Source: Rhodovulum tesquicola (lineage in GTDB: Bacteria; Pseudomonadota; Alphaproteobacteria; Rhodobacterales; Rhodobacteraceae). Taken from it: 44,213 nt of DNA. The position numbers and the translations under genes are program-made. The DNA lies in contig NZ_JAMYDV010000023.1 of assembly GCF_024128855.1 (NCBI RefSeq), positions 1-44,213 on the forward strand, given 5' to 3'. Each line of letters begins with the position of its first letter. The stretch's first letter is position 1. This document shows, piece after piece, positions 17,900 to 29,354 of this stretch. Below the pieces are notes generated by a model. It saw nothing but the letters and a program-made list of their open reading frames with translations. It made no database searches and was not told the DNA's origin.

Positions 17900-19312
17900 T
17901 CAGGTCGAACGGCGCTCGGCGCCGAAGACCTTTTGCGCGACAAGCGGATAGGCCACCACGACCGTCACCACCAGAAACAGCAACTCGGCCCCGTAGACGA
18001 AGAAATAGGGCGTGGCCGGGCCGAACAGCCCCGAGAAGGGCGACAGCAGGATCAGATCGCGCGCGATCCCGCCCAGCGCGATCGCCACGCCCGCCGAAGT
18101 GGCCTGCACCGCACCCCAGGCACCAAGCGCAAGGCCGACCTGTTCCTTCGGCGCGGCGCGCATCGTGGCGGTCAGGGTGCCGTGGCTGAACAGACCCGCG
18201 CCGAACCCCGCCATCCCCGTGCCTATGATGAAGATGACCGGGCTTTGCAGAGTGGCCGAGAAGGTGATCAGCGCAAAGGCCGGCACTCCGACCAGCGCCC
18301 CTGCCCCCGCCATCACCATCGGATCGGCACCACGGCTGAGCACGCGCGAGGCCAGCGCAAAGCCGATCAGCCCGCCCATCGCCAGCGTCGCCGTCAGCCG
18401 CGTGGTCGAGGCGACGGACATTCCCAGCACCTCGCCGCCATAAGGCTCCAGCAGCACCTCGGCCAGGCCGAAGCCCATCGTGCCCAGCCCGATGATCCAC
18501 AACAACCGGCGCGGGTTGGCACCGCGCATGAACAGCCCCCAGGCATCCGAGAAACTGGGGTCCGGCTCGGGGTTGACGCGCTGGCGATGGGCGCGCTCGC
18601 GGTCGCGCGCCTCCATCTTCCAGATGGCCAGCACATTGAAGACCATCGTCATCACCGCCGCGCCCTGGATCACCTGGATCAGCTTGGGATGGCTGAAATC
18701 CTCCAGCAACCTGCCGAAGATAAGGGCGCTCGCGATCATGCCGACCAGCATCATCACATACATCAGCCCGACCACGTTGGGCTGATCCTCGCGGGGCGCC
18801 AGATCGGTGGCCAGCGCAAGCCCGACGGTCTGGACGATATGCACGCCCGCGCCCACCAGCAGGAAGGCGAGCGCCGCGCTGACAAGACCGACCCAAAGCG
18901 GCGCATCGGCCGCGAATTGCTGCTGCGACAGCACGATCAAGGCCAGCGGCATGATCGCGAAGCCGCCCCATGCCAGCAGCGTGCCCTTCCAGATATAAGG
19001 CACACGGCGCCATCCAAGGGCAGATTTGTGGGTGTCGGACTTGAACCCGATAAGCGCCCGGAATGGCGCGAACAACAGCGGCAACGCGATCATCACGCCT
19101 ACGATGGTGGCGGGCACCTCAAGTTCGACGATCATCACACGGTTCAGTGTGCCGACCAGCAGCACCATGGCCATGCCGACCGAAACCTGGAACAGGGCAA
19201 GGCGCAACAGGCGCGACAGAGGAAGGTCGTCGCTGGCCGCCTCGGCAAAGGGCATCACACGCATGCCTGCGCTAGCGATGCCCTGGATCGCCATCCGGCT
19301 AAGTCGATTCAT
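17900..19312 (-). CDS. pucC: PucC, LH2 assembly / bacteriochlorophyll-delivery MFS protein
   Basis: A 470-aa membrane protein with about 12 transmembrane helices belonging to the BCD (bacteriochlorophyll delivery) family of the major facilitator superfamily. PucC is needed for assembly of the LH2 antenna. Typical segments are FKSDTHKSALGWRRVPYIWKG (read at the first cytoplasmic loop) and GGLIGFALASRVLSRGADP. Its place right after pucBA identifies it as pucC rather than the paralogue lhaA. I chose ATG 19312 (MNRLSRMAIQG) because GGAGAG lies 8 bp before it; an alternative ATG at 19381 has a poor ribosome-binding site and adds a polar extension. A stable hairpin separates it from pucA. Confidence 0.92.
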   Translation of the reverse strand: MNRLSRMAIQGIASAGMRVMPFAEAASDDLPLSRLLRLALFQVSVGMAMVLLVGTLNRVMIVELEVPATIVGVMIALPLLFAPFRALIGFKSDTHKSALGWRRVPYIWKGTLLAWGGFAIMPLALIVLSQQQFAADAPLWVGLVSAALAFLLVGAGVHIVQTVGLALATDLAPREDQPNVVGLMYVMMLVGMIASALIFGRLLEDFSHPKLIQVIQGAAVMTMVFNVLAIWKMEARDRERAHRQRVNPEPDPSFSDAWGLFMRGANPRRLLWIIGLGTMGFGLAEVLLEPYGGEVLGMSVASTTRLTATLAMGGLIGFALASRVLSRGADPMVMAGAGALVGVPAFALITFSATLQSPVIFIIGTGMAGFGAGLFSHGTLTATMRAAPKEQVGLALGAWGAVQATSAGVAIALGGIARDLILLSPFSGLFGPATPYFFVYGAELLFLVVTVVVAYPLVAQKVFGAERRST

Positions 19313-19410
19313 GCGGTCGCTCTCCGCACGGCGCGACGCGTCGCGGCCGTATTCCGATTGCCCGCGGGCGCGCGTTTCCATGTGTCAGGCCCCGACGGAA
19401 GGGCCGAGAT

Positions 19411-19469: not shown

Positions 19470-19652
19470 TTAGGCCGCGTCGGCTTCCGTGGTGGTGACC
19501 ACGGCGGCGTCTTGCTTGTAGTAGTCGGCGAAGAAGCCGGACTGCGTCACGAGGCCCAGGTGGACCAGGAACGAGCTGATGGCAACGGCGCTCAGGAAGA
19601 GCGGGATGCCGACGGTCGGCTTAACGACGAGCCAGAGTTTCGCGTTGTTCAT
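19470..19652 (-). CDS. pucA: LH2 (B800-850) light-harvesting complex alpha chain
   Basis: A 60-aa single-span polypeptide of the peripheral antenna. The start MNNAKLWLVVKPTVGIP is the classic LH2-alpha N terminus. H31 (in FLVHLGLV) is the B850 bacteriochlorophyll ligand, and Y44-Y45 (ADYYKQ) match the residues that hydrogen-bond the B850 acetyl groups and set the 850-nm band, so a red-shifted B800-850 type rather than B800-820 is expected. AAGAGGAG precedes the ATG. It follows pucB by 15 bp. Confidence 0.96.
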   Translation of the reverse strand: MNNAKLWLVVKPTVGIPLFLSAVAISSFLVHLGLVTQSGFFADYYKQDAAVVTTTEADAA

Positions 19653-19667
19653 GAGTTGGTACTCCTC

Positions 19668-19823
19668 TTAGCCGAGCCACGGCGTGCCGACGGCAGCCAG
19701 GAAGTGCGCGACGAGCGCGATGGCGCCGAACACGCGGGTGCCATCGATCACTTGCTTGTGGACTTCTTCGGCTTCGGCAAGCGTCAGGCCGGTCGGCCAG
19801 ACTTTGTTGGGATCGTCAGTCAT
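19668..19823 (-). CDS. pucB: LH2 (B800-850) light-harvesting complex beta chain
   Basis: A 51-aa single-span polypeptide, partner of PucA. It shows the conserved AEAEEVHKQ segment, H40 (LVAHFLAA) as the B850 ligand, R30 near the B800 site, and the C-terminal TPWLG. It is close to the Rba. sphaeroides PucB pattern (MTDD-NKVWP-GLT). The start at 19823 is preceded by GGGGAG. The open frame upstream to 19901 is untranslated leader. First gene of pucBAC, behind a PpsR-type operator pair. Confidence 0.96.
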
Positions 19824-19958: not shown

Positions 19959-20001
19959 TGTCACAAGCGATTGACGTTGGCAATGTCAACGTAGGCTTAC
20001 A
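19959..20001 (-). promoter_or_regulatory. Tandem PpsR/CrtJ-type operators and puc promoter
   Basis: A perfect TGT-N12-ACA palindrome (19984-20001) and an imperfect TGT-N12-ACG (19959-19976) are 7 bp apart, close to the 8-bp spacing known for cooperative PpsR/CrtJ binding. PpsR represses photosynthesis genes under oxygen. A minus-strand TTGACA (19989-19984) inside the perfect site could be the -35, with TTGTGA 17 bp further as a weak -10 overlapping the second site, so a bound repressor would block RNA polymerase. Confidence 0.7.
19971..19989. promoter_or_regulatory. 19-bp palindrome in the puc operator
   Basis: TTGACGTTGGCAATGTCAA is a near-perfect palindrome (8 of 9 half-site positions) bridging the two PpsR-type sites. 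It may be part of the same operator or a separate regulator site; I do not recognise a specific factor. Confidence 0.4.
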
Positions 20002-20116: not shown

Positions 20117-20212
20117 CGGGGCGCCGAACCGCAACTGTCGTTCTTGTTGGACCGGAACCAAGCTTTCGCATCCGACGGCGACACAGACCCTGGAAAGAAC
20201 TCTGGAGGAACG

Positions 20213-20539
20213 ATGAACAGCTATCCCTGGGACGCCTGGATGCCGAAGCTCGCAGCCAACCAGCACATGACCGATGTCAAGATCGACCGCACCAAGAGCA
20301 CGACGATGTTCTCGGACGCGCTGGGCTTCGCTCTGCTGTCGGACAAGAAACCGAACATCGAGCTGAAGACGTCGAACCCGACGCCGCTGTCCAGCAAGAT
20401 GGGCTGGGATCTTCTGGGCGGTAAGGGCGAAGGCAATGTCGAACTGACCACCAGCGAGCCCTACCCGCTGTCCGCGCGCATGGGCTGGAAGCTGCTGTCC
20501 GAGCGCAAGTACTACGCCATCGCCGCGCACCAGCAATAA
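20213..20539 (+). CDS. Small repeat protein, divergent from pucBAC (unknown; possible LH2 gamma-like)
   Basis: A 108-aa soluble protein with no membrane segment or signal peptide. After an N-terminal W-rich stretch it contains three 26-27-residue repeats: TMFSDALGFALLS (31-43), TPLSSKMGWDLLG (57-69) and YPLSARMGWKLLS (84-96), the first two followed by (I/V)ELxTS. The protein at 27830-28099 shares this pattern and an N-terminal M-(T/S)-D...(I/L)-D-R motif. ATG 20213 is preceded by TGGAGGAA, a strong ribosome-binding site; a frame open upstream to 20144 was rejected. A clear terminator follows. Position next to pucB suggests a photosynthesis role, and R. capsulatus has a 14-kDa LH2 gamma protein (PucE) encoded in its puc operon, but I cannot confirm homology. 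Confidence 0.8.
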   Translation: MNSYPWDAWMPKLAANQHMTDVKIDRTKSTTMFSDALGFALLSDKKPNIELKTSNPTPLSSKMGWDLLGGKGEGNVELTTSEPYPLSARMGWKLLSERKYYAIAAHQQ

Positions 20540-20555
20540 GCCTGAACGACACCCC

Positions 20556-20591
20556 GACGCCCGCGCTGACCCAAGGTCCTGCGCGGGCGTC
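20556..20591 (+). terminator. Intrinsic terminator of the 20213 gene
   Basis: An 11-bp perfect stem (GACGCCCGCGC, 20556-20566, with GCGCGGGCGTC, 20581-20591) and a 14-nt loop lie 16 nt past the stop codon. The following TTGCGTGTG is a poor U tract, but stem strength and position fit a terminator. Confidence 0.65.
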
Positions 20592-20641
20592 TTGCGTGTG
20601 CCCCCCGGACAAGCCGCCAGAACCGGGGATCGACCATGAGA

Positions 20642-20669
20642 AAGGGCCGGCCCAGGCGGACCGGCCCTT
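20642..20669. terminator. Bidirectional terminator between the 20213 gene and ndk
   Basis: AAGGGCCGG (20642-20650) pairs with CCGGCCCTT (20661-20669) around a 10-nt loop. On the + strand TCAAATTTT follows, and on the minus strand TCTCAT follows. It sits 37 bp after the ndk stop and can serve both converging genes. Confidence 0.65.
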
Positions 20670-20706
20670 CAAATTTTCAGGCCTGTTTCCGAAGGCGGCC
20701 GCGCCC

Positions 20707-21129
20707 TCAGCCGACCAGTTCGAGACCCGAGAAGAAATAGGCGATCTCGACCGCTGCGGTATCCTCGCCATCCGAGCCATGGACCGAGTTCTCGCCGATG
20801 GACAGCGCGAATTCCTTGCGGATCGTGCCCTCGGCCGCCTCGGCGGGGTTGGTCGCGCCCATCACTTCGCGATTCTTCGCAACCGCGTTCTCGCCTTCCA
20901 GCACCTGCACGACGATCGGCTCGGAGGCCATGAACTCGCACAGTTCGTCATAGAAGGGACGTTCCTTGTGGACGGCATAGAAGACGCCGGCCTGCGCCTT
21001 GGTCAGGTGGATGCGCTTCTGCGCGACGATGCGCAGGCCCGCGGCTTCGAGTTTGGCGTTGATCGCGCCGGTCAGGTTGCGACGCGTCGCGTCGGGCTTG
21101 ATGATCGAAAAGGTGCGCTGGATCGCCAT
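20707..21129 (-). CDS. ndk: Nucleoside diphosphate kinase
   Basis: A 140-aa enzyme that transfers the gamma phosphate of ATP to NDPs. H117 in NSVHGSD is the phospho-accepting histidine; other family marks are IIKPDA (9-14), KERPFY (55-60), VLEGENAV and GATNPAEA. The length is exactly that of the family. ATG 21129 follows AAGGACATC. Monocistronic, ending at a hairpin. Confidence 0.97.
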
Positions 21130-21224
21130 GTCGGATGTCCTTGTGTGCTGCGGCACCCCCGGGCGGGGGCACGGGAAAATTCGCGGCCCTGCTAGCATGG
21201 GGCCTTCGCGGAGAAAAGCCGCGA

Positions 21225-21253
21225 TTGACGCCAAGGTGCGGCGCTGGCACTAG
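21225..21253 (+). promoter_or_regulatory. Candidate promoter of the ABC-F gene
   Basis: TTGACG (21225-21230) is followed after 17 bp by CACTAG (21248-21253, weak -10). Transcription would begin within a few bases of the ATG at 21260, and no ribosome-binding site precedes that ATG, so the mRNA may be leaderless. Confidence 0.3.
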
Positions 21254-21259
21254 CCCGAC

Positions 21260-23119
21260 ATGCTGCGGATCGACGACATATCCTTTGCCATGGAGGGCCG
21301 CCCGCTGTTCGAGCGCGCCTCGGCGGTGATTCCCGATGGCCACAAGGTCGGGCTGGTGGGCCGCAACGGCGCGGGTAAGACCACGCTGTTCCGGCTGATC
21401 CGGGGCGAACTGGCGCTGGAATCGGGCGAGATCGCCCTGCCCGCCCGCGCCCGCATCGGATCGGTCGCGCAGGAGGTGCCGGGCTCCGGTGTCTCGCTGC
21501 TCGATACGGTGCTGGCCGCCGATACCGAACGCGCCGCGCTTCTGGCCGAGGCCGAGACCGCGACCGACCCCCACCGCATCGCCGAGATCCAGACCCGGCT
21601 GGCCGATATCGACGCCTGGTCGGCCGAGGCCCGCGCCTCGGCGATTCTCAAGGGGCTGGGCTTCACCGAGGCCGAACAGGCGATGCCCTGCTCGGCCTTT
21701 TCGGGCGGTTGGCGGATGCGGGTGGCGTTGGCGGGCGTGCTGTTCGCGCGCCCCGACCTGCTGCTGCTGGACGAGCCCACCAACTATCTCGACCTCGAAG
21801 GCGCGCTGTGGCTCGAATCCTACCTCGCGCGCTATCCCTACACGGTGATTCTGATCTCGCACGACCGCGGGCTTCTGAACCGGGCGGTCGGCCATATCCT
21901 CCATCTGGAGAATCGCAAGCTGACGCTTTACGCGGGCGGCTACGATGCCTTTGCCCGCGCCCGCGCCGCCGCCCGCGCCGCGCAGACCGCCGAAGCGAAG
22001 AAACAGGAACTGCGCCGCGCCCATCTTCAAGGATTCGTCGACCGTTTCCGCTACAAGGCGTCCAAGGCCCGTCAGGCCCAGGCCCGGCTCAAGATGCTGG
22101 AACGGATGGAGCCGATCGCCGCCCCCGAGGATGCCGCGCGGACCGTCTTCACCTTTCCCGAACCGGAAGAACTGTCGCCCCCCATCGTCGCGCTGGAAGG
22201 CGCCGCGGTCGGCTATCACGGCAAGCCGGTCCTGTCGCGTCTCAGCCTGCGAATCGATCAGGACGACCGGATCGCGCTTCTGGGCCGGAACGGCGAGGGC
22301 AAATCGACCTTTTCCAAGCTGCTGGCAGGGAAACTCGATCTTCTTTCCGGGCAGATGACCAAGGCCGCCAAGCTGCGAGTCGGCTATTTCGCCCAGCATC
22401 AGGTGGATGAACTGCACCTCGACGAGACGCCGCTGGACCACATCCGTCGCGAACGGCCCGAAGAGACCCCGGCAAGGCTGCGCGCCCGGTTGGCCGGGTT
22501 CGGGCTTGGGGCCGATCAGGCCGGGACGGAGGTCGCGCGCCTTTCGGGCGGGCAGAAGGCACGGCTGTCGCTGTTGCTGGCCACGCTCGACGCGCCGCAT
22601 CTGTTGATTCTCGACGAGCCCACCAACCACCTGGACATCGAAAGCCGCGAGGCATTGACCGAGGCGCTGAACGCCTATTCCGGCGCGGTGATCCTGGTCA
22701 GCCACGACATGCACCTTCTCGGCCTCGTGGCCGACCGGCTTTGGCTGGTCAGGGACGGCCGCGTGACGCCGTATGACGAGGATCTCGAGGCCTATCGCCG
22801 GAAGCTGCTGTCGCAGGACGCCCCGGACGGCCCGCAACCGGCAAGGCCCGCCGCGAAACCGGCCGCAAGGAAACCCTCGCGCGAGGCGGTTCAGGCGGCG
22901 CGCGCCGAGGCGCGGAAATGCGAATCCCGCGTCAACAAGCTGACCGAGATGCGCGAAAAGCTGACAAGGAAACTTGCCGACCCGGCCCTGTATGAGGCCA
23001 ATCGCGAGGGCGAGCGACAGCTTTGGCAGGACAAGTTCGGCGAGGTGGAAGAGGCACTGGAACGCGCCGAGGCGATGTGGATGGCCGCACTCGAAACGCT
23101 TGAGGATTCGGGGGGCTGA
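21260..23119 (+). CDS. ABC-F family ATP-binding protein
   Basis: A 619-aa soluble protein with two ABC ATPase domains and no membrane segment. Domain 1: Walker A GRNGAGKT (34-41), signature FSGGWRMR, Walker B LLLLDEPTNYLDL. Domain 2: GRNGEGKST, signature LSGGQKAR, LLILDEPTNHLDIES. A linker rich in Arg, Lys and Ala joins the domains, and a charged C-terminal coiled coil (about 530-615) follows. ABC-F proteins act on the ribosome; this arrangement looks like the YheS/Uup group rather than antibiotic-resistance types, though the exact subfamily is unsure. The stop is 3 bp before the marC-like GTG start. Confidence 0.92.
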   Translation: MLRIDDISFAMEGRPLFERASAVIPDGHKVGLVGRNGAGKTTLFRLIRGELALESGEIALPARARIGSVAQEVPGSGVSLLDTVLAADTERAALLAEAETATDPHRIAEIQTRLADIDAWSAEARASAILKGLGFTEAEQAMPCSAFSGGWRMRVALAGVLFARPDLLLLDEPTNYLDLEGALWLESYLARYPYTVILISHDRGLLNRAVGHILHLENRKLTLYAGGYDAFARARAAARAAQTAEAKKQELRRAHLQGFVDRFRYKASKARQAQARLKMLERMEPIAAPEDAARTVFTFPEPEELSPPIVALEGAAVGYHGKPVLSRLSLRIDQDDRIALLGRNGEGKSTFSKLLAGKLDLLSGQMTKAAKLRVGYFAQHQVDELHLDETPLDHIRRERPEETPARLRARLAGFGLGADQAGTEVARLSGGQKARLSLLLATLDAPHLLILDEPTNHLDIESREALTEALNAYSGAVILVSHDMHLLGLVADRLWLVRDGRVTPYDEDLEAYRRKLLSQDAPDGPQPARPAAKPAARKPSREAVQAARAEARKCESRVNKLTEMREKLTRKLADPALYEANREGERQLWQDKFGEVEEALERAEAMWMAALETLEDSGG

Positions 23120-23122
23120 GGG

Positions 23123-23743
23123 GTGGAGCCGACCTTCTACATCTCGGCCTTCGTCACGCTGTTCGTGGTGATCGACCCGATCGGTCTGGCGCCGCTCTTC
23201 GTGGCGCTGACGCAAGGCATGGCCGCGCGCGAGCGGCGTGCCATCGCTTTTCGTGCCGCTGTCATCGCCATCGGCCTGCTGACCCTGTTCGGAATCTTCG
23301 GCGAGCAGGTGCTGGGCTTTGTCGGGATCTCGATGCCCGCCTTCCGCATCGCGGGCGGGATCCTGCTGTTCCTCACCGCCCTCGACATGCTGTTCGAACG
23401 GCGCAGCAAGCGGCGCGAGGATCAGGCCCATGACGACCGGCCGGACCCGTCGGTCTTTCCGCTGGCCACGCCGCTGATCGCGGGCCCCGGCGCAATGGCG
23501 ACGATGATCCTGCTGATCGGTACGGTCGGGCGCGAGCCGGTGGCCATGATCCTGATCCATCTGGTGATGCTGGCGGTGATCGGGGTGGTGCTGCTGATGT
23601 TCCTGGCCGCCGGGCTGATCGAGCGCGCGCTGGGGCGGACCGGGATCAACGTGGTCACGCGGCTTCTGGGGATGCTGCTTGCGGCGCTGTCGGTGCAGTT
23701 CGTGCTGGACGGGCTGCGCGATTTCGGGCTTGCGCCGGTCTGA
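23123..23743 (+). CDS. MarC family integral membrane protein
   Basis: A 206-aa protein with about six transmembrane helices. The N-terminal half contains FVVIDPIGLAPLFVALT (14-30) and AFRIAGGILLFLTALDML, and the second half PLATPLIAGPGAMATMILL, both hallmarks of the MarC/UPF0056 family. A transport role is suspected but no substrate is established, and MarC itself was shown not to cause multiple antibiotic resistance. GTG start 23123 lies 3 bp after the ABC-F stop, with GAGGG just before, indicating co-translation. Confidence 0.88.
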   Translation: MEPTFYISAFVTLFVVIDPIGLAPLFVALTQGMAARERRAIAFRAAVIAIGLLTLFGIFGEQVLGFVGISMPAFRIAGGILLFLTALDMLFERRSKRREDQAHDDRPDPSVFPLATPLIAGPGAMATMILLIGTVGREPVAMILIHLVMLAVIGVVLLMFLAAGLIERALGRTGINVVTRLLGMLLAALSVQFVLDGLRDFGLAPV

Positions 23744-23802
23744 CACCCTCGCGATTCCGGGGCCGGTCCCTATATCCGGAAAAGGAACCAGAAAGGAAGG
23801 CC

Positions 23803-24384
23803 ATGGACGGCGACAGCCTTGCAAGACTGCTTTACCTGGTGCTGCTCGGCTCGGCGATTGCCGGGTATTTCTTCGTCGCGAACCGCCACCGTCTGGGCCA
23901 GGTCGCGCAACAGGCGGCGATCTGGGGGCTGATCTTCGTCGGCGTGATCGCGGGATTCGGGCTGTGGTCGGACATCCGCCGCGATGTCGCCCCGCGCCAG
24001 GAGGTGTTCGCCGACCAGGCCCGCATCGAGGTGCCCCGCGCGCCGGAAGGGCATTACTACCTGACGGTGCGGATCAACGGCACACCCGTGCGATTCGTGG
24101 TCGATACCGGCGCGACGCAGGTCGTCCTGACCCGGCGCGACGCGCAGCGGGTGGGGCTAAACCCCGATGCGCTGGACTATATCGCCGAGGCGCGCACTGC
24201 GAACGGTGTGGTGCGCACCGCGCCGGTGCGGCTGGATCTGGTGGAACTGGGACCGATCGAGGATCGCGGCGTCCGCGCCTTCGTCAATTCGGGCGAGATG
24301 CGGGAATCGCTTCTGGGCATGGGCTATCTCAACCGCTTCGCAAAGATCGAGCTTGTGCGCGACCGGATGATCCTGACCCGCTGA
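23803..24384 (+). CDS. Membrane-anchored retropepsin-like aspartic protease (clan AA, TIGR02281-type)
   Basis: A 193-aa protein with two N-terminal hydrophobic segments (about 7-25 and 39-56) and then a single retropepsin-fold domain. The catalytic motif is VVDTGAT (D101), and the second family element is LLGMGYL near residue 167. Only one catalytic Asp is present, so the active enzyme would be a dimer. AGAAAGGAAGG precedes the ATG. The bacterial family is poorly characterised; substrates are unknown. It converges with holC 6 bp away. Confidence 0.85.
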   Translation: MDGDSLARLLYLVLLGSAIAGYFFVANRHRLGQVAQQAAIWGLIFVGVIAGFGLWSDIRRDVAPRQEVFADQARIEVPRAPEGHYYLTVRINGTPVRFVVDTGATQVVLTRRDAQRVGLNPDALDYIAEARTANGVVRTAPVRLDLVELGPIEDRGVRAFVNSGEMRESLLGMGYLNRFAKIELVRDRMILTR

Positions 24385-24390
24385 GGCCCT

Positions 24391-24849
24391 TCAGGCGCCG
24401 CTGTCGCGCCGGATCTCCCAGCGTCCCGATTCCTCGGACCAGTATTGCGCGCGCAGTCCTGCTCCCGTCAGCGACCGCCATTGCCCGCGTGCCCCCTCGA
24501 CCGCCACAGGATCGTTGCCGTCGAACAGGATGCAGACCCGTTCCATCGCAGCGGCCTCGTGCGGCGAGACCTGCGCGCCGTCCACAGCCATCAGGCAGAC
24601 CGCCCCGTTCGGGATGTCGGCGCCCGTGGTCAGCAGAACCGGCTGATCGGCGTCGAACTCGCCCCCCGCCTGGCCGTGCGGCAAGAACCCGTCGCCCTGC
24701 CACAACCGCTCGTCCAGCCAGTCAAGCCGCCCGGCATCGCCCCCCCGCACCACGACACGCCATCCCTGCGCCAGCGCCTTGTCCAGAAGGGCGGGCAGCG
24801 TCGCCTCTATCGGGCGGCGGGTGAGGTGATAGAACATCGCGATGCCCAT
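24391..24849 (-). CDS. holC: DNA polymerase III subunit chi
   Basis: A 152-aa protein. The start MGIAMFYHLTRRP followed by LPALLDKALAQGWRVVVR, LDERLWQ, FLPHG and QPVLLTT is the HolC pattern; chi links the clamp loader to single-stranded DNA-binding protein. The start at 24849 was chosen by similarity of the first residues to alphaproteobacterial HolC; ATG 24837 is an alternative. No strong ribosome-binding site is visible. Confidence 0.9.
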   Translation of the reverse strand: MGIAMFYHLTRRPIEATLPALLDKALAQGWRVVVRGGDAGRLDWLDERLWQGDGFLPHGQAGGEFDADQPVLLTTGADIPNGAVCLMAVDGAQVSPHEAAAMERVCILFDGNDPVAVEGARGQWRSLTGAGLRAQYWSEESGRWEIRRDSGA

Positions 24850-24969
24850 GACCCGATGAAAGACCGGCCCAGGCAAACGATTGCAAGCGGGAATCGCACG
24901 GGGCGCATCCCGCACTGGCCAGACACATTCAAATCTGTCTATGCTTGCGTCAAAAGGGAGGAGACAACC

Positions 24970-25914
24970 ATGATCCGCAAGGCACTACTCTGCGCCCTGC
25001 TGGCAGCACCCGCCTTCGCCAGCGAGGACATCCCCGACAAGTACCCCCAGTCGGTGCTCTATTCAAAGCCCGTCGAAGTGATCCCCAATGTCTTCTCGGC
25101 CATCGGCGCCACCGCCCCGCCGACCTATGAAAACGCGGGCCACAACAACAACCTGTCCTTCCTCGTCACCGGCGACGGGGTGATCGTCGTCAACGGGGGC
25201 GCAAACGCGAAACTCGCCGAGGCGCTGCATGCCGAGATCAGGGCCGTCACGGACCAGCCCGTGCGACTGGTCATCAACGAGAACGGCCAGGGCCATGCGA
25301 TGCTGGGCAACAGCTACTGGGCGGCGCAAGGGGTCGATATCGTGGCCCATGTCGAGGCCAAGAAAGTGTTCGAGGACAATTCCTTCCAGATCCTCGAAGG
25401 CATGAAGCGTTACGCCCTCGAAAACGCCGAAGGCACCAAAGCGGTCGGCCCCAACATCACCTTCGAGGATCGCTATGACATAGAAATGGGCGACATGCGC
25501 ATCGAGGTTCTCTATCTCGGCCCCGCCCATTCCGAGGGCGACGTCTCGGTCTGGTTGCCCGACGAACGGCTGGTGATCGCGGGCGACATCGCGTTCCACG
25601 AGCGCATGCCGCCGATTTTTGCCGAGACCTGCACAAGCTGCTGGATCGAGACCTGGGATACCGCCTTCGAACCCCTGGGCGCGCTTTACGTCATCCCCGG
25701 GCACGGCCATCCCACCAACATGGCCCAGGTCCGCCGCTATACCCGCGATTATCTGGTCTATCTGCGCGAGCGGATCGCCGAACATATCGATGCTGGAGGA
25801 ACACTCGACGACGCCTATTATGTCGACCAGAGCCCGTTTGCGCATCTCGACACGTTCGAGGAACTGGCGACAAAGAATGCAGGCATCGTCTACACGGAAA
25901 TGGAGTTCGAATGA
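24970..25914 (+). CDS. Secreted metallo-beta-lactamase-fold protein with degenerate metal site
   Basis: A 314-aa protein with a clear signal peptide (MIRKALLCALLAAPAFA, cleavage near 18) and MBL-fold landmarks: NNLSFLVTGDGVIVVNGG (60-77), GPAHSEGDVSVWLPDERLVIAGDIAF (185-209, with H187 and D206) and IPGHGHP (242-248). The usual HxHxDH is replaced by NGQGHA (104-109), and the preceding D of the VIDTG-type strand is N75. Two ligands of a dinuclear zinc site are therefore missing, so the enzyme may bind one metal, a different metal, or none. GGGAGGAG precedes the ATG. Its stop overlaps the next gene by 4 bp. Periplasmic function unknown. Confidence 0.85.
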   Translation: MIRKALLCALLAAPAFASEDIPDKYPQSVLYSKPVEVIPNVFSAIGATAPPTYENAGHNNNLSFLVTGDGVIVVNGGANAKLAEALHAEIRAVTDQPVRLVINENGQGHAMLGNSYWAAQGVDIVAHVEAKKVFEDNSFQILEGMKRYALENAEGTKAVGPNITFEDRYDIEMGDMRIEVLYLGPAHSEGDVSVWLPDERLVIAGDIAFHERMPPIFAETCTSCWIETWDTAFEPLGALYVIPGHGHPTNMAQVRRYTRDYLVYLRERIAEHIDAGGTLDDAYYVDQSPFAHLDTFEELATKNAGIVYTEMEFE

Positions 25915-26471
25915 TGGCCGTCTCGACCCCCATCTGCGATCTCGGCTGGAAAGCTCCCGCTTTCTCGCTGCCCGGCACCGACGGGCGGACCTGGACGCTG
26001 GAGGATGTGCGCGGACCCAAGGGCACGCTGATCATGTTCATCTGCAATCACTGTCCCTATGTGATCGCGGTGCGCGACCGGATCATCCGCGATGCGCGAG
26101 ACCTTCAGACGCTCGGGATCGGGGTGGCCGCGATCTCGTCGAACGACGCCGCCGCCTATCCCGACGACAGCTTCGAGAACATGCAGCGGCTTGCGCAGGA
26201 ACTGGCGCTTCCGTTTCCGTATCTTTATGACGAGGATCAGTCGGTCGCGACGGCCTATGACGCCGTCTGCACCCCGGATTTCTTCGGCTTCGATGCCGAG
26301 CTGGGGCTGCAATATCGCGGGCGGCTGGATGCCTCGCGCAAGGAGGCGGGTCCCCCAGACCTGCGCCGCGACCTTTACGAGGCGATGAAACAGGTGGCCG
26401 AGACCGGCCAGGGACCGACAGAGCAGATCCCGTCGATGGGCTGTTCGATCAAATGGAAGGACGCCGCGTGA
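25911..26471 (+). CDS. Thioredoxin-like (AhpC/TSA-type) protein
   Basis: A 186-aa thioredoxin-fold protein with the redox motif CNHC (45-48, in FICNHCPYV) and a peroxiredoxin-like core (LPGTDGRTWTLEDV, VAAISSNDAAAYPDDSFENM, CTPDFFGFD). No signal peptide is seen, so it is probably cytoplasmic. It overlaps the MBL-fold gene (ATGA, 25911-25914) and the phosphatase gene (GTGA, 26468-26471), indicating translational coupling. ATG 25914 is an equally good start. A thiol reductase or peroxiredoxin role is inferred; no substrate can be named. Confidence 0.87.
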   Translation: MMAVSTPICDLGWKAPAFSLPGTDGRTWTLEDVRGPKGTLIMFICNHCPYVIAVRDRIIRDARDLQTLGIGVAAISSNDAAAYPDDSFENMQRLAQELALPFPYLYDEDQSVATAYDAVCTPDFFGFDAELGLQYRGRLDASRKEAGPPDLRRDLYEAMKQVAETGQGPTEQIPSMGCSIKWKDAA

Positions 26472-27130
26472 AGGCCATCATCTTCGACCTCGACGGAACG
26501 CTGATCGACAGCGCGCCCGACATCCATGCCGCCGTGAACCGGACGCTGGCCGAAACCGGCGATGGCGAGTTGCCGCTGGACACCGTCCGCGGCTTCATCG
26601 GCAATGGCGTGCCCGTGCTGATCGAGCGGGTGATCGCGGCGCGCGGGCTGGACCCGGCGCGGCAGGCGGCGATGGTGGAAACCTTCATGCGCCATTACGA
26701 GGCCGACCCGGCCACGCTGACCACGCTGTTTCCCGGCGTGAAGGACGCGGTCGAACAGTTCCGCGACGAGGGTTGGGCGATGGGGGTCTGCACCAACAAG
26801 CCCGAGGCCGTCTCGCGCGCGATTCTCGACCGGCTGGGGATCGGCCCCTATTTCGGCACGGTGGTCGGCGGCGATACGCTGGACGTGAAGAAACCCGACC
26901 CCGCCGTGGCGCTGGCCGTCAAGGAACGGCTGGGCGCGACGGTCGCGGTCTATGTCGGCGACAGCGAGGTCGACGCCGAATGCGCCTGGAAGGCGGGGAT
27001 GCGCTTTGCCCTGTTCACCGAGGGCTATCACCGCGCCGAGGATGTGGACGACATCCCGCAGGATGCGCGCTTCTCGGATTTCGACGTGGCGGTGGCCATC
27101 GTCGCCCGCCTGGCCGACGAGTTGCGATGA
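26468..27130 (+). CDS. gph: Phosphoglycolate phosphatase (HAD family)
   Basis: A 220-aa haloacid-dehalogenase phosphatase: motif I FDLDGT (D7, D9 from the GTG start), motif II CTNKP, motif III KKPDPAV and motif IV YVGDSEVDAECAWKAGM, with a helical cap between. This pattern is typical of Gph/CbbZ, which hydrolyses 2-phosphoglycolate from Rubisco oxygenation or DNA repair. GTG 26468 overlaps the upstream stop by 4 bp; ATG 26453 is the alternative. It overlaps the cbbY start by 4 bp. Confidence 0.92.
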   Translation: MKAIIFDLDGTLIDSAPDIHAAVNRTLAETGDGELPLDTVRGFIGNGVPVLIERVIAARGLDPARQAAMVETFMRHYEADPATLTTLFPGVKDAVEQFRDEGWAMGVCTNKPEAVSRAILDRLGIGPYFGTVVGGDTLDVKKPDPAVALAVKERLGATVAVYVGDSEVDAECAWKAGMRFALFTEGYHRAEDVDDIPQDARFSDFDVAVAIVARLADELR

Positions 27131-27825
27131 GCCTGCGGGCGCTGATCTTCGACGTTGACGGAACGCTTGCCGAAACCGAAGAGGCGCATCGGCGGGCGTT
27201 CAACGACAGCTTCGCGTCCTGGGGCCTTGACTGGTCCTGGGACCGCGAGGCGTATCGCCGCCTGCTGCGCACAACCGGCGGCAAGGAACGGATGCTGGCC
27301 TTTCAGGCCGACCTGCCCGACGGGGCGCCGCGGCTGACCGACGACCAGATCGCGCAATTGCACCGCGAAAAGACCGCCCGCTATGGCGAGATCCTCGCCG
27401 CGGGCGATCTGGCGCTGCGCCCCGGCGTGGCCGACCTGATCGCCACGGCGCGCGATGCGGGGCTGCGTCTGGCGGTTGCAACCACCACGAACCTGCCCAA
27501 TGTCGAGGCGCTGGCGCGGTGTTGCTGGGGCCGGGAGGCCTGCGAAATCTTTGACGTGATCGCCGCGGGCGACGAGGTGGCGGCCAAGAAGCCCGCGTCC
27601 GACGTGTTCGAACTGGCGCTGGCGCGGCTGGGTCTCGGCCCCGAAGCCTGCCTCGCCTTCGAGGACAGCCGCAACGGGTTGCGCTCGGCCATGGGCGCGG
27701 GGCTTACGGTGATCGTCACCCCCAGCGCCTATACCGACCACGAGGACTTCACTGGCGCGGCGCATGTCCTGCCCACGCTCGAGCGCGCACATTGGCCCGC
27801 GCCGCTCTTGGCCATCGCGGGCTGA
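27127..27825 (+). CDS. cbbY: HAD phosphatase CbbY (xylulose-1,5-bisphosphate phosphatase type)
   Basis: A 232-aa HAD phosphatase with motif I FDVDGTLAETEEAHRRAFN (D9, D11), motif II VATTTN, motif III KKPASDVFELAL and motif IV AFEDSRNGLRSA, then VIVTPSAYTDHEDF, which is characteristic of CbbY. The Rba. sphaeroides enzyme removes xylulose-1,5-bisphosphate, a misfire product that blocks Rubisco. Last gene of a four-gene overlapping operon; with gph it would clear two Rubisco-related inhibitors. No Rubisco genes are in the window. It converges with the 27830 gene 4 bp away, with no evident terminator. Confidence 0.9.
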   Translation: MSLRALIFDVDGTLAETEEAHRRAFNDSFASWGLDWSWDREAYRRLLRTTGGKERMLAFQADLPDGAPRLTDDQIAQLHREKTARYGEILAAGDLALRPGVADLIATARDAGLRLAVATTTNLPNVEALARCCWGREACEIFDVIAAGDEVAAKKPASDVFELALARLGLGPEACLAFEDSRNGLRSAMGAGLTVIVTPSAYTDHEDFTGAAHVLPTLERAHWPAPLLAIAG

Positions 27826-27829
27826 GGGC

Positions 27830-28099
27830 TCAGCGCAGCGACAGGAACCGCTTGCCCGTCCTGAGCCGCATCCCCGATTTCCGGCGCGAGATCATCGGGA
27901 AATAGAAGAACGACGACAAGGGCGTCGGCCAGTCGGTGTTCAGCCGCGTCGTCGATGCCTTGCGCGACACTATCGGCAGCCCGAAGAAATCCGAGAAGGG
28001 CGTGGCGCTGTTCCGGTCCAGATGCCAAGTGTAATCGCTCATCACGTAGTCGAAGGGGGCCACGCTCTTGATGAAGGTGGAATCCTGCTTGCCTGCCAT
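27830..28099 (-). CDS. Small repeat protein, paralogue of the 20213 protein (unknown)
   Basis: An 89-aa basic protein without signal or membrane segment. Two 26-residue repeats, TPFSDFFGLPIVSRK (33-47) and TPLSSFFYFPMISRR (59-73), are each followed by an R-L-x-T turn (52-55 and 78-81). The spacing and key residues (P/M-F/L-S-D/S, G-six-on, L/I-S-x-K/R) equal those in the protein at 20213-20539, and both have M-(T/S)-D...D-R before repeat 1. AAGGAAA precedes ATG 28099. It lies 88 bp after the M20 amidohydrolase on the same strand. I do not recognise a named family. Confidence 0.75.
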   Translation of the reverse strand: MAGKQDSTFIKSVAPFDYVMSDYTWHLDRNSATPFSDFFGLPIVSRKASTTRLNTDWPTPLSSFFYFPMISRRKSGMRLRTGKRFLSLR

Positions 28100-28187
28100 G
28101 GGGTTTCCTTTCGTCTGAACCCTGCCCGACCGGGGATCAGACTACCTCAGCGTGCGCCCCGCCGAAAGATGCACGATCCGCACAGGC

Positions 28188-29354
28188 TCAGGTCGCGGGC
28201 AGCCGCGCCTCGACCATGCCCACGAACCAGGACGACCCAAACGGAATCGCCGCATCAGAGAACTCGTATTCGGGGTGATGCACCATCGCCGTGTCGCCGT
28301 TGCCGACAAAGATATAGGCACCGGGCCGTGCGTTCAGCATGTAACTGAAATCCTCGCCCCCCATCATCGGCGCCACGTCGCGCTGTACCCGGCCCGAGAC
28401 GCCCTCAGCCACCTCTGCGGCGAACCCGGTCTGGTCGGGGGCATTGTCGGTCACGGGATAACCGCGCCGCCAGGAAATGTCGGCCCGCGCGCCGAAGGCG
28501 GCCGCCGTATACTCGACGATGCGGCGGAACTGCGCCTCGGCCCGGTCGCGCACGGCCTCGTCCAGGGTCCGCACCGTCCCGCGCAGCCGCACATGCTGGG
28601 AGATCACGTTGCTTGCCTTGCTGTCGGTCTCGACCGTGCAGACCGAGACGACGACCTGTTTCAGCGGGTCGATGCCACGCGAGGCGATGGATTGCAGCGC
28701 CACGACGATCTGGCTGGCCACCAGCACCGTGTCGATACATTCATGCGGCTTGGCGGCATGCCCGCCCTTGCCGGTAACGGCGATCTCGAAATCGTCGGTC
28801 GCGGCCATGATCGGCCCGGTGCGGATCGCGAACTCGCCCACCGGCAGGCCGGGCATGTTGTGCATGCCGTAAACCTCGTGGATGCCGAACCGCTCCATCA
28901 GCCCGTCCTCGACCATCGCCTTGCCGCCTGCGCCGCCCTCCTCGGCGGGCTGGAAGATCACCACCGCGGTTCCGTCGAAATTGCGCGTCTCGGCCAGGTA
29001 TTTCGCCGCCCCCAGCAGCATCGCGGTATGCCCGTCATGGCCGCAGGCATGCATCTTGCCCGGATGCTTCGAGGCATGGGGCAGCCCCGTCGCCTCGATG
29101 ATGGGCAGCGCATCCATGTCCGCGCGCAGCCCGATCGCCCGCCCCCTTCTGTCGCTGCGCCCCCGGATCACGCCCACCACGCCCGAGCGGCCGATCCCCT
29201 CCACCACCTCGTCGCAGCCGAATTCGCGCAGCTTGGCGGCCACCAGTCCAGAGGTGCGCGGCAGGTCGTACATCAGTTCGGGATGGGCATGGATGTCGCG
29301 CCGCCATCCGGCGATCTCGTCCTGCAATTCGGCGAGGCGGTTCTTGACGGGCAT
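28188..29354 (-). CDS. M20 family metallo-amidohydrolase (hippurate hydrolase/aminoacylase-like)
   Basis: A 388-aa zinc-dependent hydrolase of N-acyl amino acids or similar amides. Family marks: RRDIHAHPEL (18-27), LRADMDALP (77-84), HACGHDGHTAMLLGAA (103-118, C104 and H106 metal ligands), FQPAEEGGAGG (134-144, catalytic Glu pair), MHNMPGLPVG, GKGGHAAKPH and the late MMGGEDFSYML. AGGAGA lies 8 bp before ATG 29354; the long upstream frame to 30344 was rejected. Exact substrate (hippurate, indole-acetyl amino acid, N-acetyl amino acid) cannot be told. The upstream 29355-29652 holds no gene and no convincing promoter. Confidence 0.9.
   Translation of the reverse strand: MPVKNRLAELQDEIAGWRRDIHAHPELMYDLPRTSGLVAAKLREFGCDEVVEGIGRSGVVGVIRGRSDRRGRAIGLRADMDALPIIEATGLPHASKHPGKMHACGHDGHTAMLLGAAKYLAETRNFDGTAVVIFQPAEEGGAGGKAMVEDGLMERFGIHEVYGMHNMPGLPVGEFAIRTGPIMAATDDFEIAVTGKGGHAAKPHECIDTVLVASQIVVALQSIASRGIDPLKQVVVSVCTVETDSKASNVISQHVRLRGTVRTLDEAVRDRAEAQFRRIVEYTAAAFGARADISWRRGYPVTDNAPDQTGFAAEVAEGVSGRVQRDVAPMMGGEDFSYMLNARPGAYIFVGNGDTAMVHHPEYEFSDAAIPFGSSWFVGMVEARLPAT

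Follow-up and report, generated by a model that had tools for sequence, protein, structure and literature searches.

In a 44,213-nucleotide contig of Rhodovulum tesquicola (NZ_JAMYDV010000023.1, positions 1 to 44,213; hereafter the window), two small genes, named A and B, encode members of a real family of repeat polypeptides, which is unnamed in the databases searched and is convincingly tied to the genes of light-harvesting complex 2 (LH2). Most descriptions of LH2 show a ring built of nothing but alpha and beta chains; these repeat proteins are probably accessory components of the antenna that have escaped notice. By analogy with the gamma chain of Rhodopseudomonas palustris LH2, we favour, with a probability of about 0.6, the reading that they are accessory polypeptides which would lie as an extended ribbon along the alpha–beta ring and work like gamma.

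A repeat shared by genes A and B

The two genes and the cores of their repeats, located with a position matrix, are as follows.

20213 to 20539, plus strand: gene A, 108 aa, three repeats, facing pucBAC
20303 to 20350, plus strand: core of A repeat 1, residues 31–46, TMFSDALGFALLSDKK
20381 to 20428, plus strand: core of A repeat 2, residues 57–72, TPLSSKMGWDLLGGKG
20462 to 20509, plus strand: core of A repeat 3, residues 84–99, YPLSARMGWKLLSERK
27830 to 28099, minus strand: gene B, 89 aa, two repeats (open reading frame, matrix and profile)
27956 to 28003, minus strand: core of B repeat 1, residues 33–48, TPFSDFFGLPIVSRKA
27878 to 27925, minus strand: core of B repeat 2, residues 59–74, TPLSSFFYFPMISRRK

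The matrix was built from 61 repeats of other Rhodovulum genomes, those of the window genome and of the closely related G008 being excluded. It found exactly three copies in A, starting at residues 31, 57 and 84 (29 to 42 bits), and exactly two in B, at residues 33 and 59 (24 and 29 bits), with the next-best positions scoring −15.2 and −20.1 bits respectively. None of 2000 shuffles of A, and none of 2000 of B, matched the second-best score of its own protein. The core common to both proteins is T-P-[LF]-S-x-x-[MF]-[GN]-[WF]-x-L-[LI]-S-x-[RK], and the repeats are spaced by 26 and 27 residues in A and by 26 in B. Thus the proposal of an earlier, sequence-only reading of this DNA, that A and B share a repeat of about 26 residues in three and two copies, is borne out by the matrix, by the shuffles and by a profile from outside the Rhodobacteraceae (see below). 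The M-(T/S)-D...(I/L)-D-R stretch that it had noticed ahead of repeat 1 is also present, as MTDVKIDR in A and MSDYTWHLDR in B.

The window genome carries four genes of the family. The third, C, lies on contig 17; its product of 121 aa, counted from an MTDK start, has three repeats and closes with a tail whose last residues are TGEVQK. The fourth, D, lies on contig 2 and encodes 142 aa, with four repeats and a tail similar to that of C. Each Rhodovulum protein contains 2–5 units (three in A, two in B, three in C and four in D). The C and D types (L002, L003 and orthologues) end in a conserved tail, F-x-x-F-x-R-x-I-x-T/S-G-E-V/P-Q/E-K, with the look of a degenerate repeat. All 16 Rhodovulum genomes examined matched, with 2–5 matches each (one many-repeat protein can yield two), and the other 25 genomes in the same sample gave none. 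Of the 14 named loci of the family 12 were from Rhodovulum, and the other two came from one metagenome-assembled genome labelled Rhodobacteraceae bacterium. A weak match to A in its own genome (L006, E=0.4, with an in-frame stop) was dropped as chance. In an alignment of 21 sequences, the serine residues S19 and S45 were invariant columns, which might act as bacteriochlorophyll (BChl) ligands as the serine of gamma does.

In line with the sequence-only reading, no named family was found for the repeat: no Pfam or NCBIfam model reached its curated cut-off, and the best sub-threshold model, PF16582, scored 20.3 bits on C where 30.1 are required. The sub-threshold Pfam matches to C and to a five-repeat protein were rejected as below cut-off. 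In the PDB, no sequence matched meaningfully when A, B, one protein of the fused type described below or the profiles A1 and A7 served as queries. Neither C nor two of the fused relatives had a match among plasmids, and no description of the repeat family was found in the open-access literature, subscription papers not being covered.

Linkage of the family to the puc genes

In the window, gene A is divergent from the LH2 operon, with the following features in between and beyond.

20206 to 20211: GGAGGA, ribosome-binding-like, directly 5′ of gene A
19984 to 20001, between pucB and gene A: TGTN12ACA palindrome, putative CrtJ/PpsR-type target
19671 to 19823, minus strand: pucB, LH2 beta (PF00556)
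19470 to 19652, minus strand: pucA, LH2 alpha, 60 aa (PF00556)
17900 to 19381, minus strand: pucC (PF03209), exact start uncertain

Gene A faces pucB in 15 of the 16 Rhodovulum genomes (the exception is G009). Since the wider neighbourhood of A is conserved in most of those 15, the telling case for its linkage to puc is G010, in which only the puc genes remain of the genes tested near A. The palindrome TGTN12ACA is the target of CrtJ/PpsR (PMC10890935). The 44-kb window holds two such sites, of which the one in the A–pucB gap may serve pucB, A or both; among 14 further Rhodovulum loci in which the start of A was located, 12 have the same palindrome ahead of it (the start in L053 was missed or wrongly picked). 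PpsR-type regulation of B, C and D was not found, no site being seen among the upstream regions checked. A neighbour of the M20-peptidase type (window region 27127–29351) is retained beside gene B at 10 of the 14 further B loci of Rhodovulum (L066, L068–L073 and L077–L079), a context which is stable and non-photosynthetic.

When 394 Rhodobacteraceae genomes were searched with profile A4, made of the Rhodovulum members, three matched. Two of these were Rhodovulum, one of them the window genome; the third, G216, matched only weakly (E=6e-5). It was this weak match that led to the wider family. The G216 protein consists of an N-terminal domain of ~105 residues followed by a C-terminal repeat region, and as a query on its own it matched 27 of 198 Rhodobacteraceae genomes, some weakly or with stops. 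Profile A6, built from 14 sequences of this fused group, matched 47 of the 394 genomes, and in 45 of these the fused gene lies directly downstream of pucC. The order pucB-pucA-pucC-gene was read in 20 of the 47 loci; in 24 more genomes the gene lies, by coordinates, 1.7–3.2 kb from a light-harvesting complex (LHC) match on the same strand; and in G053 a contig break falls inside pucC with the repeat gene right behind it. The two exceptions are G089, with an N-terminal match only that is distant from its own LHC genes, and G157 (L118, contig C3), where pucC in fragments is followed by a broken repeat gene and no LH2 pair was seen. The G157 locus is a decayed puc remnant, with only one LHC pair elsewhere in the genome. 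Second fused copies away from puc were observed in G016 (C2, L214), G216 (C43, L215) and G408 (C1, L212), much as B, C and D lie apart from puc in Rhodovulum. The genomes with a gene downstream of pucC also carry a PucA with a long C-terminal extension (99–120 aa in total, with VTLPDGTTARAVL-like text; L092–L111), against 60 aa in the Rhodovulum window.

The folded N-terminal domain of the fused proteins is missing from the stand-alone Rhodovulum proteins, and A6 gave no match at E≤1e-4 in two Rhodovulum genomes. In some fused relatives this domain weakly matches the YflT-like general stress domain PF11181 (two of the 14 A6 members, best E 0.0034; three of the seven members of profile A7, best E 0.0014), whereas A and B have no such match. 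The YflT-like proteins without repeats that were examined are not puc-linked.

In a class-wide sample, A6 matched 17 of 385 genomes. Twelve of the proteins were examined, seven with repeats and five without (G502 showed only one clear copy), and the remaining five matches were confined to the first 54 profile positions. All seven repeat-bearing proteins adjoin pucBA: in five cases the gene stands between pucA and pucC and shares their strand, while one gene is convergent and one divergent; the other ten genomes comprise eight without an LHC match and two with two LHC matches. In two of the five same-strand cases (L185 and L186) the repeat gene stands between two tandem pucBA pairs, ahead of pucC. 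Profile A7, made of these seven proteins, matched six of 304 genomes in a phylum-wide sample, namely the window genome, three Rhodobacteraceae, G434 (order pucB-pucA-gene-pucC) and G836 (a YflT-like protein without repeats). Outside the Rhodobacteraceae, therefore, all eight repeat-bearing proteins adjoin pucBA, in four arrangements.

The sequence-only reading had proposed to check for co-occurrence with puc or puf genes across Rhodobacterales; for puc it was found across Rhodobacteraceae. LHC genes were present in 84 of the 198 Rhodobacteraceae genomes. Four or more matches, a number that fits LH1 together with LH2, occurred in 24 of these, three matches in one and two matches in 59. The pucC-downstream family occurs in 20 of the 24 genomes with at least four LHC matches, in three of the 60 with two or three, and in none of the 114 without. 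The three are G129, in which the pair seen is puc, G089 (weak) and G157 (broken). Fisher p-values computed for this co-occurrence and for the matrix comparisons take no account of relatedness and were set aside. The four of 24 without it are Rhodovulum, which has A–D instead, G142, with no repeat gene seen downstream of pucC, and G082 and G122, with none seen at their puc loci; G082 presumably resembles Cereibacter sphaeroides, judging by its long second PucA.

We then compared the groups by sequence. A profile search like the one that the sequence-only reading had envisaged recovered both genes: with A7 against 4100 six-frame Rhodovulum open reading frames (ORFs), the best 29 matches were family members (E=1.1e-9 for A, 3.6e-7 for B); of 55 matches in total, five further ones among the best 40 that a motif rule labelled 'other' sit at B-gene positions. 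Conversely, A4 ranked the seven outside proteins 1–7 among the 506 ORFs of their loci (E from 1.2e-14 to 1.5e-5; next ORF 0.41), and among 985 ORFs of the Rhodobacteraceae pucC-downstream group it gave a weaker link, with G216 at 2.6e-6 and the next at 0.0076. In this way the outside proteins connect Rhodovulum with the pucC-downstream group. In 10 of 20 pucC-downstream proteins the Rhodovulum matrix scored better than on composition shuffles (p≤0.01). A matrix comparison starting from the fused relatives is partly circular, as their segments were picked by a motif-shaped pattern; the two-way test of profiles against decoy ORFs is cleaner.

Eleven long relatives contain eight units at 25-residue spacing plus a terminal SFSKLFGWPT-like unit that resembles the Rhodovulum unit (34 rows were counted, two of them truncated and one protein twice, with L214 giving no row; for L207 and L211 the automatic count was seven, the eighth being visible in the sequence). 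Ten of the eleven are puc-linked and the eleventh is the second copy in G216. Eight plus one make nine units, which would fit the number of alpha–beta pairs in a nonameric LH2; the eleven proteins may be orthologous, and a single event could then account for them.

Proposed role at the LH2 antenna and other explanations

The sequence-only reading had suggested a beta-hairpin or turn-based repeat. This fold is not supported: AlphaFold2 of A, with 12 orthologues, gave a mean predicted local distance difference test score (pLDDT) of 50 and short helical turns only, one per repeat, with no strands, and in a fused relative the N-terminal domain had block means of 81–96 and the repeat part 39–48. 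Such low confidence fits a chain that would become ordered only on a partner. A fold search with the fused relative gave no match at E≤0.001; the generic small alpha/beta folds NDK, CutA and S6 came at E 0.04 or worse, and no function was inferred from them.

On the ribbon reading, the repeat stretch, without a fold of its own, would be stretched out along the LH2 alpha–beta ring with each unit docking on one alpha–beta pair, and it would stabilise the ring, tune it or add pigment, like Rps. palustris LH2 gamma. Outside Rhodovulum the ribbon would form the C-terminal portion of a larger protein whose N-terminal domain is folded, and in Rhodovulum several genes would supply stand-alone ribbons of 2–5 units. 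The parts of this reading differ in strength. Physical association with LH2 is very likely for type A and the puc-linked relatives and reasonably likely for B, C and D; an extended ribbon on the LH2 ring is slightly favoured; and BChl binding via the conserved serine of each unit, predicted from gamma, is doubtful. We suggest only tentatively that belts are common and overlooked in LH2, with one unit per alpha–beta pair and a serine that may ligate an extra B800-type BChl, that nine-unit chains would wrap the nonamer, and that Rhodovulum would swap in short, interchangeable ribbons of 2–5 units to tune its antenna.

The genes of the relatives adjoin pucC, and the fused proteins have a folded, cytoplasmic-looking N-terminal domain in the AlphaFold2 model, as might be expected of factors that act together with PucC in LH2 assembly or quality control, for example by holding nascent alpha/beta chains or pigment, and are absent from the finished ring; to our knowledge, no Rhodobacteraceae LH2 structure shows such a chain. 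However, tandem units of exactly 25 residues, eight and a terminal ninth, point to a periodic partner, for instance the ring, and gamma is a precedent; we consider an assembly role rather unlikely. Another membrane complex could also be served, such as the reaction centre–LH1 complex or an LH1–LH2 interface, with the puc linkage reflecting co-regulation only. The unlinked B, C and D and the second copies of G016, G216 and G408 would suit this, but nearly all genomes with one LHC pair lack the family (the three of 60 being one puc pair, one weak and one broken match), and we regard it as improbable. That the repeat similarity is a compositional accident and the gene order merely inherited could be argued from the short repeats with their biased composition, from the weak link of A6 to Rhodovulum, and from the Rhodovulum neighbourhood, which is conserved as a whole, so that adjacency there is weak evidence alone. 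This explanation is largely refuted and very improbable, as A7 retrieves the members of A4, and A4 those of A7, with decoys ranked lower each time, the shuffle tests point to a true repeat, the several differing gene orders are every one at puc, and no member occurs in the 114 genomes without LHC genes.

Several observations weigh against the ribbon reading. The argument for membership in LH2 is a genomic one, and the low pLDDT is equally compatible with plain disorder. The antenna role raised by the sequence-only reading stands in part: puc linkage holds across many genera and for type A in Rhodovulum, but B, C and D have other neighbours and are not puc-linked in the Rhodovulum genomes. The 450 bp ahead of C and D contained no TGTN12ACA palindrome in any of 25 rows (23 genes, of which two are listed twice; rows L017 and L031 start too far upstream), and none was found upstream of five located B genes or of the window B (eight of the 14 B loci had no located start and row L074 is spurious). 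Three LH2-bearing genomes (G082, G122 and G142) have no member downstream of pucC, indicating that the family is dispensable for LH2. Taken by itself, the connection of Rhodovulum to the Rhodobacteraceae pucC-downstream group is weak: with A6 against Rhodovulum ORFs the best member scored 1.7e-6, but an unrelated ORF, at 0.0013, came ahead of both A (0.058) and B (0.27). The Rhodovulum proteins have 2–5 units, neither six nor nine, and gamma showed no similarity signal with the Rhodovulum matrix (p=0.72). With three profiles, letter shuffles scored as well or better in 1, 16 and 26 of 500 cases and column shuffles in 9, 17 and 24 of 500, which is a hint of similarity only.

If the family is the counterpart of gamma, accessory ribbons would be widespread in LH2-bearing Rhodobacteraceae and present in several other alphaproteobacterial families, and LH2 models without ribbons would be incomplete in those groups. 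The family supplies a gene list and a counting rule, units against alpha–beta pairs, that are directly testable by cryo-electron microscopy.

Comparison with known antenna chains

Expression of the puc operon of Dinoroseobacter shibae, Dshi_2897–2900, was reported to rise in a ppsR mutant (PMC10890935), and from the gene order we infer that the fourth gene is a family member. A single antenna at ~800 nm, LH4, has been described in several aerobic phototrophs including D. shibae (PMC12654162); that ribbons bear on such antennas is a speculation.

Accessory chains outside the antenna ring have been described as LH1 gamma in Blastochloris viridis and as gamma-like chains in Rhodopila globiformis (PMC10214105). 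These differ from the present proteins in that each LH1 subunit has one small separate chain, rather than one multi-repeat chain serving several. The LH1 gamma and the gamma-like chains are transmembrane helices. In R. capsulatus, PucE is a 14-kDa LH2 gamma protein. Within the operon there, named pucBACDE (PMC9231093; pucDE in PMC9603517), PucD/PucE are the counterpart of the Rhodobacteraceae relatives by gene position after pucC alone, whereas the Rhodovulum genes are stand-alone, with A divergent.

The closest parallel is Rps. palustris LH2 gamma (RPA1495; PDB 7ZCU, 7ZDI, 7ZE3 and 7ZE8), described as an extended ribbon of six repeats that runs around six of the nine LH2 subunits, each repeat holding one BChl through a serine, and confined to Rhodopseudomonas by its authors' BLASTp search (PMC9618040). 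Our own search for gamma in 17 genomes of the family of G554, with no positive control among them, found nothing. The sequence similarity to gamma is not significant; we propose that the repeat proteins work like gamma and do not claim that they are gamma. The units differ in size and number, gamma having six of 16 residues (EYKGHSGHPLIKQEG) and the Rhodovulum proteins 2–5 of ~26 residues; two other relatives (L110 and L212) have units of 15 residues, near the 16 of gamma. Shared with gamma are the tandem short repeats, the conserved serine, the LH2 context and the lack of an own fold in models.

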